NCBI GenBank assembly: GCA_019038745.1 | Contig: JAHOYV010000017.1 | Span: forward strand, 1-64,000 | From: Gemmatimonadales bacterium | GTDB taxonomy: Bacteria > Krumholzibacteriota > Krumholzibacteriia > LZORAL124-64-63 | Direction: 5' to 3' | DNA: 64,000 nucleotides | Shown: positions 59,583 through 64,000 of the stretch, in pieces | Layout: every line of letters begins with the position of its first letter | How positions within the stretch are numbered: the first letter of the stretch is position 1 | Made by a program: the position numbers and the translations under genes | The notes under the pieces: generated by a model | Told to the model about the DNA's origin: nothing | Database searches by the model: none | The model's input: the letters and a program-made list of their open reading frames with translations, nothing else

Positions 59583-60014
59583 TCACCCCATCCCAACCCT
59601 GAATTCATGTTCGACGGGAACGGGGCGGGTCTTTAGTGCGGAATAGGCAGTTTCTTCATTGGACTGATGGGAACAGGATCCCTCTATCCGATCTCCGGCC
59701 GCTCGCAAACGCAGCAGGAGATCCCGCAAGGCCACTTTCCCGGGATCTGGGTCATTATCGGGTCCAATTGCAGGAGTTGAAACGCTATATCCAGTATTGG
59801 TTACCATGATTTCCGGGTGTTTTTGACTATTTGGTTTTCTGGTAACACCTAAATTCAGACTGGGAATTCGAAAGAGTCGGTTCCGCATCCTACGTCTCAG
59901 AAATATGAATATGGCTGTAATGAGGAGTGCCCCACCCACCCCCACTGAAGCCGTAGCAGCCCAAAACACGGGTCCCTGATTAATGAAGAAAGCCAGACTG
60001 TTTCCCGGATTCAC
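59583..60014 (-). CDS. Uncharacterised single-pass membrane protein
   Basis: 143 residues, family not recognised. The N-terminus MNPGNSLAFFINQGPVFWAA leads into one transmembrane helix (about 17-39, ending in LITAIFIFLRRRMRNR), so a short N-terminus outside and a ~100-residue cytoplasmic part are likely. The cytoplasmic part is low in hydrophobic residues except for a possible helix VALRDLLLRLRAAGDRIEGS. Initiation is at GTG 60014 with GGGGAGA 5 nt upstream. It lies between the 117-residue gene and the HDOD pair, 20 bp after the former, so a motility-related role is possible by position only. FliO-like proteins share this topology, but no FliO motif is seen. Confidence 0.65.
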   Translation of the reverse strand: MNPGNSLAFFINQGPVFWAATASVGVGGALLITAIFIFLRRRMRNRLFRIPSLNLGVTRKPNSQKHPEIMVTNTGYSVSTPAIGPDNDPDPGKVALRDLLLRLRAAGDRIEGSCSHQSNEETAYSALKTRPVPVEHEFRVGMG

Positions 60015-60411: not shown

Positions 60412-61389
60412 TCAAGCAGTATATCCAGGCCAAACTCCGCCACTTGTGCCCAACCAGGTCAGGTAGGCCGTCAGTTGGCAAAGAGTCAAGCAGGCCATGA
60501 CATTGACCGGTTCCAATTTCTTCACTTTTTCTCCCAAAGAAACCGGTTCCTCGCTGGGTTCCTGAGGGGCGCTCTGACGCAACTTGATTTCCTGCGTGAG
60601 CTGGCCGAGACTCTGTTTTCCTTCGTGTCTCTGAATTTTTCCCTTGAGTCGGAAAATGGCCTTGGTGTGAATCTGGCAAACCCGGCTCTCGGTAACGTCC
60701 AGGATTTCCCCGATCTCCTTGAGTGTCAGTTCTTCATAGTAGTACAAGACCAAAACAAGCTGCTCCTTGTCAGGCAGCTCAATCATTCTTTCCCCGATGA
60801 GTTCCTTCATTTCCTGCCGGGCCAGGACCTGTTCCACGTCTTCGGTTTTGGGGTCGGCCAGGTAATCGCCAAGGGTGGAAGACTGTTCGCTTTCGTCGCC
60901 GGAAGTATCGGCGTCCAGGGACATGATCGTAGCGATGGAAACCTCGCCGACCATGGTGTCCAACACCGCTATGTCAATGTTCAACTCACGAGCGATTTCC
61001 GCATCAGTGGCCGGGCGCCCCAGTTTGACTTCCAGGGTGCTGTAAGCCTCTTCCAGCTGTTTGGCCTTCCGCCTCAAGGACCGGGGAAACCAATCCTGGC
61101 TTCGCAGTTCATCAAGGATCGAACCTCGAATGCGGGGAATGGCGTAGGTTTCGAACTTAATTCCGCGTAGGTGGTCGAAGTTGTCTATGGCCTGGATCAA
61201 CCCCAATAAACCGGCTGATACCAGATCGTTGAATTCCACGTAATGGGGAAGTCCGATTGCCATTCGCCCGGCCACGTACTTGACAATGCGGGCATAGATA
61301 TTGACCAGTTCCCGCCGCCCTTCCTGGCGTTCATCCCCATGGCAGCGTTCCCAAACGTCATGATGTAGGATCTGGACCGTTTCAGTCAT
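60412..61389 (-). CDS. fliA: Sigma-28 family RNA polymerase sigma factor (FliA/WhiG) with extended C-terminus
   Basis: Directs transcription of late flagellar genes. Region 2 is clear (VNIYARIVKYVAGRMAIGLP, DLVSAGLLGLIQAIDNFD, KFETYAIPRIRGSILDELRS), then WFPRSLRRKAKQLEEAY of region 3 and region 4 (LPDKEQLVLVLYYYEELTLKEIGEIL, ESRVCQIHTKAIFRLK). The domain order and FETYA/IRGSILDELR motifs are those of FliA/WhiG. Uniquely, about 70 residues follow region 4: a Glu/Pro linker and then a strongly hydrophobic end (VNVMACLTLCQLTAYLTWLG). AAGGTTGG lies just before the ATG. It sits after flhA-flhF and a small membrane protein, with no flhG between. Confidence 0.92.
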   Translation of the reverse strand: MTETVQILHHDVWERCHGDERQEGRRELVNIYARIVKYVAGRMAIGLPHYVEFNDLVSAGLLGLIQAIDNFDHLRGIKFETYAIPRIRGSILDELRSQDWFPRSLRRKAKQLEEAYSTLEVKLGRPATDAEIARELNIDIAVLDTMVGEVSIATIMSLDADTSGDESEQSSTLGDYLADPKTEDVEQVLARQEMKELIGERMIELPDKEQLVLVLYYYEELTLKEIGEILDVTESRVCQIHTKAIFRLKGKIQRHEGKQSLGQLTQEIKLRQSAPQEPSEEPVSLGEKVKKLEPVNVMACLTLCQLTAYLTWLGTSGGVWPGYTA

Positions 61390-61485: not shown

Positions 61486-61698
61486 TCATTCCGTCTCACT
61501 CTCTCCGATTTCATCCTTGCTCTCGAAATGTGGTACGAGTCGAACGGCCAGTGTCATAATTGATCCCAGGATGAAGAAGCCCAAGTATGAGATGATCATC
61601 TTCTTGAGAGTTGGCAGAAGACCCCAATCCTGCCAGAGGGCTGCTATCAGGGTCACCAGCGCCGCGGCAAGAGCCAGGTTGTGAATCAGCTGATACAT
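61486..61698 (-). CDS. Small two-helix membrane protein between flhF and fliA
   Basis: 70 residues with two predicted transmembrane helices (about 5-23, IHNLALAAALVTLIAALW, and about 36-55, ISYLGFFILGSIMTLAVRL) joined by a short loop DWGLLPTLKK, and an acidic tail FESKDEIGESETE. GGGAG lies 5 nt before the ATG, so translation is credible. It is 15 bp downstream of flhF, the position usually held by flhG (also called ylxH or fleN). It has no sequence relation to that ATPase. The family is not recognised. Co-transcription with flhA-flhF and a role in flagellar placement are suggested by position only. Confidence 0.7.
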   Translation of the reverse strand: MYQLIHNLALAAALVTLIAALWQDWGLLPTLKKMIISYLGFFILGSIMTLAVRLVPHFESKDEIGESETE

Positions 61699-61713: not shown

Positions 61714-62934
61714 CTAATCGGCTATTTCCATTCCGGCGATCCGGTCGGGTACAAATTCCGTCTCCAGCCGGGCCGAACCTGCGATCAGTATTCTGTCCAG
61801 AAGCTCTCCTGATGCTGCGATGTTCAGCAACTCTTCAATCCCCCGGTTCTCACTGCGCAGGGAATAGGGCAGCGGGATGCTCTCGGCCAGGTCCAGAATC
61901 TTTCCCTGCAAGCGGGTTCTGTCCATCCTGCTCAGGGCAATCCAATCGCAGTTCCAGGCCCGCGCGGCTCCGTTTAGCTCCTCAAGGTCCTGGAAATCAC
62001 GATCCAAGGGAACAACGAGGTGGCGATGGAAACTGTGGTTTTTGCTGAGCCAGGAATGAATCGTATCCCCAAGAGCCAGTGAAGGATGGTCCAGCGCCGG
62101 CAAGTCCAACAAAACGGCCTCGTATTTTCCCAAGTGTTTTTCACTCTTGGCCAATTGACTGTCCTTGCGGATGATTCCCGCGTCGAAGCCCAATTTGGCC
62201 GCAGCATTTTGGAGGCGACGGATTTCCCCTGCGTGTCCCGGGTGAAGACTCAGTACCAGGGTTTTGCGACCCTGTTTTTTCAATTCTGCTGCCGCTCCCA
62301 GGACCATTCTGGTTCGGCCGGATCCAGCGTCACCCAGGAAGGCGTGGCAGCCGAAGAATCCGTCCCACCCACAATTGCTTGCTTTAAGATTTTCATTCAA
62401 CCAGGCCAGAGCTGCTGGGCGTTCTTCCATCATTCTCCCGGTCTCCCCGGCAAACCGGGTGAGCAGGTTTCGAACAGCCGCTTTGCCGGCCCCTGCGGTC
62501 AGGAGAGTCTGGGCCAGGGGATTGCCTTCAAGTTCATCATGCTTTACGTCACGGTTTTTACTTTCAGATGCCTCAATAACCAGTTTCTCGATTCGTTCAA
62601 CTTCCAATTCTATCTCCCGCAGAATTTCCGGGGACGTAGCACTGGCGTCGGGTTCGGCGACCGCTGGTGTCGTAGGCGCATATCCCAGTGGAGCCACAGC
62701 GGACCCGGGACCCACGCGAACCGATTTGTCACCGGGAGGTTGGACGGTCACTTCAACCAGGTGTTCTTGTCCCAGCCCGGTTTCCTGCCGACGGGTAATT
62801 TTCCGGCTGCCCAGGATGATTACGTCTCTCCCGTAGCGATTTTCAACCTGCCGGTATGCTTCCTTGAGCGTAGGCCCGTAGAAAACATTTTCCTGACCGC
62901 TAACCGACTGCTTGCTGTCCTTGCTGGGAGACAC
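61714..62934 (-). CDS. flhF: FlhF-like flagellar SRP-family protein with degenerate GTPase motifs
   Basis: 406 residues. The N-terminal motif TLKEAYRQVENRYGRDVIILGSRKI and the position after flhA identify FlhF, which normally uses GTP-dependent dimerisation to mark the flagellar pole. The NG domain is altered: the P-loop is GDAGSGRTR (201-209), with R207 for the invariant lysine; the DTAGR motif is replaced by DLPALDHP (277-284); and the TKxDE specificity motif reads SRMDRT (335-340). The C-terminal frame GKILDLAESIPLPYSLR still matches SRP GTPases, so this is a diverged FlhF and not an unrelated protein. GTP hydrolysis is unlikely. The start is GTG 62934, overlapping flhA by 35 bp. Confidence 0.85.
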   Translation of the reverse strand: MSPSKDSKQSVSGQENVFYGPTLKEAYRQVENRYGRDVIILGSRKITRRQETGLGQEHLVEVTVQPPGDKSVRVGPGSAVAPLGYAPTTPAVAEPDASATSPEILREIELEVERIEKLVIEASESKNRDVKHDELEGNPLAQTLLTAGAGKAAVRNLLTRFAGETGRMMEERPAALAWLNENLKASNCGWDGFFGCHAFLGDAGSGRTRMVLGAAAELKKQGRKTLVLSLHPGHAGEIRRLQNAAAKLGFDAGIIRKDSQLAKSEKHLGKYEAVLLDLPALDHPSLALGDTIHSWLSKNHSFHRHLVVPLDRDFQDLEELNGAARAWNCDWIALSRMDRTRLQGKILDLAESIPLPYSLRSENRGIEELLNIAASGELLDRILIAGSARLETEFVPDRIAGMEIAD

Positions 62935-64000
62935 TGGTCACCACCGTTCCGACCGATTGGACACTGGCCGAGGATGCTACCTCGGTGTAACCCATGACGG
63001 CCAAGTTGGGATAAGTAGGCTCAATGAGCCTCTTGACGAAGATTCGAATCGGAGAAGGAACCAAGAGGACGGGTGGGGTTCCCTGCCCGTATGCACTCCT
63101 GAGCACGGTCTCCAACCGTCCCAGGAAGGTCTGTGTGAAATCCGGGGCAAGTACAACTCCCCCGGCCTGGTCGGATTCCCGAGTGGCCTGCATAAGAATC
63201 TGTTCCGCTTCGGGGTGCAGACTGACTACGTGGAGTTTTCCCTCCGCCTCGGTGTACAGGGCGGTGATCGTTCGACCCAACGCTTCGCGAACCTTGCCCA
63301 GGAGGAAGTCCGTCCCCATTCCACTGCTGGAAAAATTGGCCAGGGTCTCCAAAACCGTGACGATATCCTTAACTGGAACCCTTTCGTGCAACAGAGCCCG
63401 CAACACGTTGTGCAGAGTGTTTACCGGAACTTTGTCCGGAACCAAATCCTCAACCAGCGAAGGTGCGAATTCCCTGATTGATTCGCACATATCCTTTACA
63501 TCCTGACGACTGAGCAGTTCGTCGGCATGGGCCCGGATCAGCTCCGACAAATGGGTTGTAAGGACGGCGGCGGGCTCTACCACTGTGTAGCCCTCTTGCT
63601 CGGCCTGGGCTTTCTGGCTTTGGTCGATCCAAAGAGCCGGGAGGTTGAAAGCCGGTTCGGTGGTCTGCAGCCCCGTAAGTTGACCTGGATTTTGGTTCGT
63701 ACTCATTGCCAGCAGTTTGTTGGGCAGGAGCTCCGATCGAGCGATGCTCACTCCCTTGAGTTTGATCTGATATTCCTGGGCGCCCAGTTGCAGATTATCA
63801 CGGACCCTGATGGGATGAATAAAGATCCCCAATTCGCTACCTACCTGGCGCCGGATGTTGCTGATCCGATGCAGGAGATCTCCACCACGGGAATCGTCCA
63901 CCAGTGGAATCAACCCGTAGCCGATCTCCAATTCCAATTTGTCCAGCACGAACAGGTCCTCACTGCGGATCCCTTCCGGTTCTTCCTCAACCTCAGCTTC
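62900..64000 (-). CDS. flhA: Flagellar export apparatus protein FlhA (C-terminal part; 5' end beyond window)
   Basis: Core of the flagellar type III export gate. Only the last 367 residues, the cytoplasmic FlhA-C domain, are in the window; the frame is open to the right edge. It shows LELEIGYGLIPLVD, RISNIRRQVGSELGIFIHPIRVRDN (the FlhA/SctV signature region), ETVVEPAAVLTTHLSE-like TVVEPAAVLTTHLSELI, LVEDLVPDKVPVNTLHNVLRALL, VPVKDIVTVLETLA and the end PNLAVMGYTEVASSASVQSVG. A flagellar FlhA rather than a virulence SctV is indicated by flhF and fliA downstream. An acidic linker (EAEVEEEPEG) lies at the very edge. Confidence 0.95.
   Translation of the reverse strand, partial: EAEVEEEPEGIRSEDLFVLDKLELEIGYGLIPLVDDSRGGDLLHRISNIRRQVGSELGIFIHPIRVRDNLQLGAQEYQIKLKGVSIARSELLPNKLLAMSTNQNPGQLTGLQTTEPAFNLPALWIDQSQKAQAEQEGYTVVEPAAVLTTHLSELIRAHADELLSRQDVKDMCESIREFAPSLVEDLVPDKVPVNTLHNVLRALLHERVPVKDIVTVLETLANFSSSGMGTDFLLGKVREALGRTITALYTEAEGKLHVVSLHPEAEQILMQATRESDQAGGVVLAPDFTQTFLGRLETVLRSAYGQGTPPVLLVPSPIRIFVKRLIEPTYPNLAVMGYTEVASSASVQSVGTVVTSVSQQGQQAVG

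Follow-up and report, generated by a model that had tools for sequence, protein, structure and literature searches.

FlhF with a degenerate GTPase site and no partner FlhG in Krumholzibacteriota: a probable adaptor for FliG

The flhF locus and the identity of its product

The window, a stretch of 64,000 nucleotides from a genome of the phylum Krumholzibacteriota, carries flhF between flhA and the gene of a flagellar sigma factor, with a small membrane protein gene, here called m70, directly downstream of it (Table 1). Upstream (5') of flhF lie flhB, fliP, fliN, fliM, fliL, motB, motA, flgE and flgD, and the gene stands in a flagellar operon context. Residues of the window FlhF are numbered throughout with the GTG start codon as residue 1.

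Table 1. Genes and motifs of the flhF region, with positions in the window
Feature	Position	Strand	Remarks
flhA, 3' part	62900..64000	(-)	extends past the window to contig position ~65,000
flhF	61714..62934	(-)	406 aa, GTG start, 35-nt overlap with the 3' end of flhA
B-domain / FliG-interaction domain (FID), residues 16-66	62737..62889	(-)	FID profile 81.7 bits, alignment
Degenerate G1/P-loop GDAGSGRT, residues 201-208	62311..62334	(-)	R207 replaces Lys, codon CGA 62314-62316
HPGH, residues 231-234, replacing G2 DTYR	62233..62244	(-)	H234 at the canonical catalytic Arg position
DLPAL, residues 277-281, replacing G3 DTAGR	62092..62106	(-)	alignment
Family-specific HRH (303-305) and WNCDW (327-331), in residues 303-331	61942..62028	(-)	newly conserved, K-less clade
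SRMDR, residues 335-339, replacing G4 TKLDE	61918..61932	(-)	alignment
m70, 70-aa two-helix membrane protein	61486..61698	(-)	directly downstream of flhF
fliA/whiG-type flagellar sigma factor	60412..61389	(-)	

The initial annotation had described a protein with the N-terminal motif of FlhF on an SRP-type frame, and this description was borne out by the family model, a profile search, the predicted fold and the gene neighbours. The FlhF family model TIGR03499 matches residues 17-277 with E=5.7e-15, although the score of 56 bits misses the curated NCBIfam cut-off of 174, and the Pfam SRP54 match likewise falls under its cut-off. A search of solved structures with the window FlhF as a single sequence gave no match, while a profile built from 20 relatives ranked the solved FlhFs first (8r9r, E=1.5e-12; 2px0, E=3.8e-11), and homology was found across the B, N and G domains. 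An AlphaFold2 model of the window FlhF, computed with 15 relatives, reached pLDDT values above 90 across nearly the whole NG domain. By using this model in Foldseek, SRP NG domains were retrieved, including those of Ffh and FtsY as well as FlhF 8r9r, 2px3 and 2px0, the TM values of 0.72-0.74 to the FlhF structures being target-normalised; the NG fold of the SRP GTPases is thus predicted to be present. Ffh or FtsY was considered as an alternative identity and rejected, as the protein has no Ffh M domain and no FtsY-type NG domain with intact G motifs, and intact Ffh and FtsY are encoded separately elsewhere in the same genome. By its B-domain, its NG fold and its flhA-flhF-fliA context, the open reading frame is a true FlhF.

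The GTPase motifs of the window protein

The replacements of the P-loop lysine by R207, of DTAGR by DLPAL and of TKLDE by SRMDR, on which the initial annotation had based its claim of a broken GTPase site, stand with their residues and coordinates as described, and the G2 box with the catalytic Arg, which it had not listed, is gone too (DTYR to HPGH). The window FlhF therefore lacks functional G1-G4 GTPase motifs. From residue 207 the distances to residues 234, 277 and 336 are 27, 70 and 129, which match the canonical FlhF distances from the P-loop Lys to the DTYR Arg (27-30), the G3 Asp (70-73) and the G4 Lys (129-135), so that the motif register is correct. A correction is nonetheless needed on one point: the aspartates of G3 (D277) and G4 (D338) persist, and the site is accordingly degenerate and not erased, even if several sister FlhFs are without these aspartates as well. 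As D277, D338 and a glycine-rich loop are retained and the Lys is replaced by Arg, weak nucleotide binding by the window protein is possible.

A sequencing error at R207, which had been raised as an objection, was ruled out, since it would take two base changes to turn the CGA codon into one for Lys, and the FlhF of a same-genus relative, 63-65% identical to the window protein, also has R at this position. As for the functional weight of such changes, the FlhFs of V. alginolyticus and C. jejuni have no GTPase activity once the G2 Arg is lost (R334A and R324A, respectively), and the P. aeruginosa protein in which Gly takes its place (R251G) is trapped with GDP (PMC7226244, PMC6855561).

Motif decay across the phylum

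The survey covered 80 genomes of Krumholzibacteriota, mostly metagenome-assembled genomes (MAGs), and the named relatives of the window FlhF belong to Candidatus Krumholzibacteriia MAGs. FlhA is present in 51 of the 80 genomes, and a relative of the window FlhF was found in 48 of these 51 against 3 of the 29 without FlhA. Not one of the 80 holds a canonical FlhF above the TIGR03499 cut-off of 174 bits, and the idea that the genome of the window encodes another FlhF of the canonical kind was dropped for this reason.

When 47 sequences of the phylum were aligned with 21 FlhFs from other phyla, the phylum FlhFs formed a single group in the tree (support 100/99), and every one that could be read is missing both the G2 catalytic Arg and the G3 AGR; judged by these motifs, the hydrolysis apparatus is gone from the readable FlhFs of the phylum. 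Those that keep the P-loop Lys mostly carry a DTPC-like G3, and in the 14 sampled the Arg position is always His. In the family of the window, the Lys is missing from 25 of the 33 sequences with a readable loop, the substitute being R in 19 of the 25 and otherwise Q, T or S, and Lys to Arg was found in 3 further cases in other families of the phylum. The K-less clade also includes wrecked P-loops (GPRSADSF, GFDRHARQ, AEHAAERL, GYARPQRL); the G4 Asp is changed to E, A or R in seven sequences of the family, and the G3 Asp to E in some members of the clade. A tree from which the P-loop columns had been omitted calls for no fewer than four changes between Lys and other residues at this position. 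At the level of sequence, the P-loop Lys has been lost in the family of the window and at least three times elsewhere in the phylum. Relatives with an intact Lys had been named as evidence that would speak against a broken site; such relatives exist farther off in the phylum, but the tree makes the loss of the Lys derived, shared by a clade and repeated.

Partial decay is also seen outside the phylum. In a genome of another phylum (L114 / L181, G102:C8), FlhF has lost G2 and carries DLPG at G3 while the P-loop Lys and FlhG are kept, which is best read as a case of independent partial decay.

The absence of FlhG and the m70 neighbour

In canonical FlhF loci of other phyla, flhG mostly stands directly after flhF. 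No MinD-like gene was found at the phylum flhF loci examined, and no partner FlhG with the DQAxxLR activator helix was found for the window FlhF. A profile made from 14 FlhGs, with which left-out true FlhGs score 223-356 bits, gave over the 80 genomes a best score of 90 bits, in a genome without FlhA, one contaminant contig aside; the absence of FlhG rests on this profile and on these 80 genomes, mostly MAGs and not a closed complete set. The search for a hidden FlhG returned a single strong match, at 292 bits, which is a fusion of a DnaJ-like domain to the N terminus of FlhG (L129, G036:C112). It was rejected as a probable contaminant, given that the genome has 7% contamination and that the other genes of the contig are unlike the flagellar locus of the phylum.

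The place after flhF is taken instead by m70, which has a basic pair in the loop between its two helices and no match above cut-off in Pfam or NCBIfam. It comes next after flhF in each of the 45 locus records from flagellated members (~35 distinct genomes; L045-L092), and by profile it was found in 47 of the 51 genomes with FlhA against 1 of the 29 others. Weak homologues of m70 stand after flhG in other phyla (L171, L182 and, weakly, L173), pointing to flhA-flhF-flhG-m70-fliA as the ancestral order, from which flhG alone has dropped out. The possibility that m70 is a newcomer substituting for FlhG was discarded on the same grounds: the gene was already a neighbour before flhG went and has kept its place, and it apparently belongs to an unnamed, old family of flagellar genes. 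In another phylum (L172, G083:C33:71000-78500), an m70-like gene has the gene of a FliA/WhiG-type sigma factor as its neighbour, and the 7.5 kb examined include neither flhA nor flhF nor flhG.

Selection, the FliG-interaction domain and the shift of conservation

Close pairs of flhF gave dN/dS values of 0.06-0.48 by NG86, which denotes purifying selection, wider pairs being near synonymous saturation. Decay of flhF to a pseudogene was rejected, with dN/dS under 0.5 and the frame intact in dozens of genomes. The conservation rank of the B-domain segment, the part of S. putrefaciens FlhF that binds FliG (PMC11236974), is as high within the phylum as in canonical FlhF.

Two FlhA-less f2 genomes (L057:4746-5777 and L058:5353-6765) encode an FlhF-like G domain with an intact P-loop and DTPC, adjoining genes for sigma-54 activators and for a UPF0164-like outer-membrane protein. 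The FID profile found no trace of that domain in these two proteins, and its absence there ties the FID to the flagellum. On sequence evidence, a GTPase domain of flagellar origin has outlived the flagellum in these two genomes.

In the K-less clade, the conservation percentile of T208 falls from the 99th to the 36th, that of the G4 Asp from 98 to 62 and that of the G3 Gly from 94 to 15, while H197, Y271, HRH303-305 and WNCDW327-331 rise to the 94-100 percentile range. Expressed as the conservation percentile of the N-edge minus that of the C-edge, the difference is -21 in canonical FlhF, +2 in the members that keep the Lys and +23 in the K-less clade. With strands assigned from the predicted model, 1 of 195 circular shifts was as large, a value that is descriptive because the test was chosen after the alignment had been seen. 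On the predicted structure, conservation in the K-less clade has shifted away from the edge of the sheet where the nucleotide site lies and onto the edge opposite.

GTP in the function of FlhF

It is debated whether the placement of flagella by FlhF requires GTP to be bound, requires it to be hydrolysed, or requires neither, as point mutants disagree between species. In the model species, GTP-bound FlhF is an active dimer that is reset by FlhG, and its B-domain holds FliG (PMC11236974, PMC12826062). P. aeruginosa and Vibrio can place their flagella without hydrolysis of GTP by FlhF (PMC12713375, PMC6092412). The binding of NG-FlhF to HubP is nucleotide-independent (PMC11236974), and the interaction with FliG persists with K222A, D294A and R251G FlhF (PMC6855561). 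On the other hand, GTP binding is held to be necessary for localization in P. aeruginosa and V. alginolyticus, and it stabilises the FlhF-FliG complex in P. aeruginosa, both of which count against an adaptor that works without nucleotide (PMC12713375, PMC6092412). In a heterologous host, FliG is stabilised by FlhF (PMC11236974).

In the open-licence literature, no pseudo-GTPase was found in connection with FlhF or an SRP GTPase, and in the literature searched on flagella of Krumholzibacteriota no paper on their placement was found.

Discussion

The interpretation starts from the loss of the motifs, the loss of flhG from the conserved gene order, the retention of flhF under selection and the predicted fold. 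We consider it probable that the FlhF/FlhG switch has been dismantled stepwise in this phylum and that FlhF is now a largely nucleotide-independent adaptor for FliG. The phylum would first have lost the reset, that is FlhG and catalysis, and GTP binding would have been lost later in several lines. FlhF would then be a pseudo-GTPase adaptor that is always on, with its B-domain (FID) holding FliG and the NG fold retained as a platform for protein binding. The re-conserved edge (G195, H197, Y271, HRH303-305, WNCDW327-331) may bind a putative partner at the membrane or the pole, and placement would be set by the amount of the adaptor and by this partner, and not by a GTP-dimer/GDP-monomer cycle that FlhG resets. 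We infer, with caution, the lack of a GTP cycle, the binding of FliG, the new partner and the effect on placement. In its fullest form, the proposal is that the dismantling was phylum-wide, with GTP binding lost repeatedly and only after FlhG and catalysis, and that a nucleotide-free pseudo-GTPase now uses the new surface to dock FliG at a partner in the membrane or at the pole; this has about an even chance of being right.

Among the known landmark partners, HubP/FimV and DUF2802 (FipA) gave no match above cut-offs, and divergent ones are possible. A single-helix membrane protein with a cytoplasmic tail is encoded at 59583-60014 (-) of the window, before HDOD genes, with counterparts at L045:6340-6873 and L053:6833-7330; its topology is FipA-like, and no match to DUF2802 was found in proteins of this type.

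Initially it had been proposed that this FlhF cannot cycle GTP and may have become a static landmark. The phylum-wide loss of the catalytic Arg, G3 and FlhG, the repeated loss of the P-loop Lys, the kept FliG-binding domain and purifying selection agree well with this; the window protein itself, with D277, D338 and the glycine-rich loop, may still bind GTP.

An altered yet living switch, in which a non-canonical site (Arg for Lys, PxH for DTYR, DxP for DTAG) still cycles without FlhG, is unlikely but is the most serious competitor. It would account for Arg as the commonest substitute of the Lys, for the retention of D277 and D338 in most sequences and for those members of the phylum in which the P-loop is normal and the catalytic position has an invariant PxH; these may still bind nucleotide, a point against the adaptor. 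It would also agree with B. cereus FlhF, which works without FlhG (PMC7218170). What weighs against it is that the same clade includes destroyed loops and substitutions of the G3 and G4 Asp, so that nucleotide contacts there appear to be without constraint.

Less probable still, and in our judgement improbable, is that FlhF has left flagellar placement for a role as a FliG chaperone or assembly checkpoint, or in the regulation of sigma-54 flagellar genes, placement being achieved by something unrelated. The FID-less G domain beside sigma-54 activator and outer-membrane protein genes in two FlhA-less genomes would fit such a role, as would the same activator and outer-membrane genes downstream in the window and the stabilisation of FliG mentioned above, but the near-strict co-occurrence with FlhA speaks against it, and the conserved operon position and the FID denote a flagellar role, though not placement specifically. 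It is very improbable that FlhF is the inactive half of a mixed pair with Ffh or FtsY, which would supply the nucleotide: SRP GTPases act as pseudo-symmetric pairs, both of these proteins are intact in the genome and the NG fold is kept, but the pairing face is the nucleotide face, whose conservation is lost here.

The phylum has the value of a natural experiment: FlhG and catalysis, and after them the P-loop, disappeared from flagellated lineages that retained FlhF together with the domain that binds FliG. If the adaptor reading is true, an adaptor is all that FlhF has to be at the least, and the nucleotide cycle comes on top of this as a further layer that controls flagellar number. Such an FlhF would be a pseudo-GTPase of natural origin within the SRP family and, to our knowledge, the first one known.

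Comparison with known systems

With the FlhFs of B. subtilis (2px0/2px3/3syn) and S. putrefaciens (8r9r), which TIGR03499 represents, the phylum proteins share the B-N-G order, the FID, the NG fold and the place in the operon. They differ from this family in being without the G2 catalytic Arg, the G3 AGR and FlhG and in scoring far under the FlhF cut-off, and the family of the window, in addition, is mostly without the P-loop Lys. FlhG/FleN/YlxH, of the MinD type, would be expected directly 3' of flhF, where most of the canonical genomes that were checked have it; it is absent from the phylum locus and, by profile and with the one contaminant contig aside, from the genomes.

Bacillus cereus likewise has FlhF and no FlhG homologue, although its FlhF differs in keeping its own GTP-binding elements and forming a GTP-dependent homodimer (PMC7218170). 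An FlhF without FlhG is therefore not new in itself, and the novelty lies in the GTPase site, whose motifs have decayed together and by degrees. Another comparison is offered by the laboratory mutants K305A and R334A of V. alginolyticus and K222A and R251G of P. aeruginosa, in which the same residues are lost. Those mutants are changed in single residues with FlhG present, whereas the losses in this phylum are natural, combined and fixed throughout a clade.
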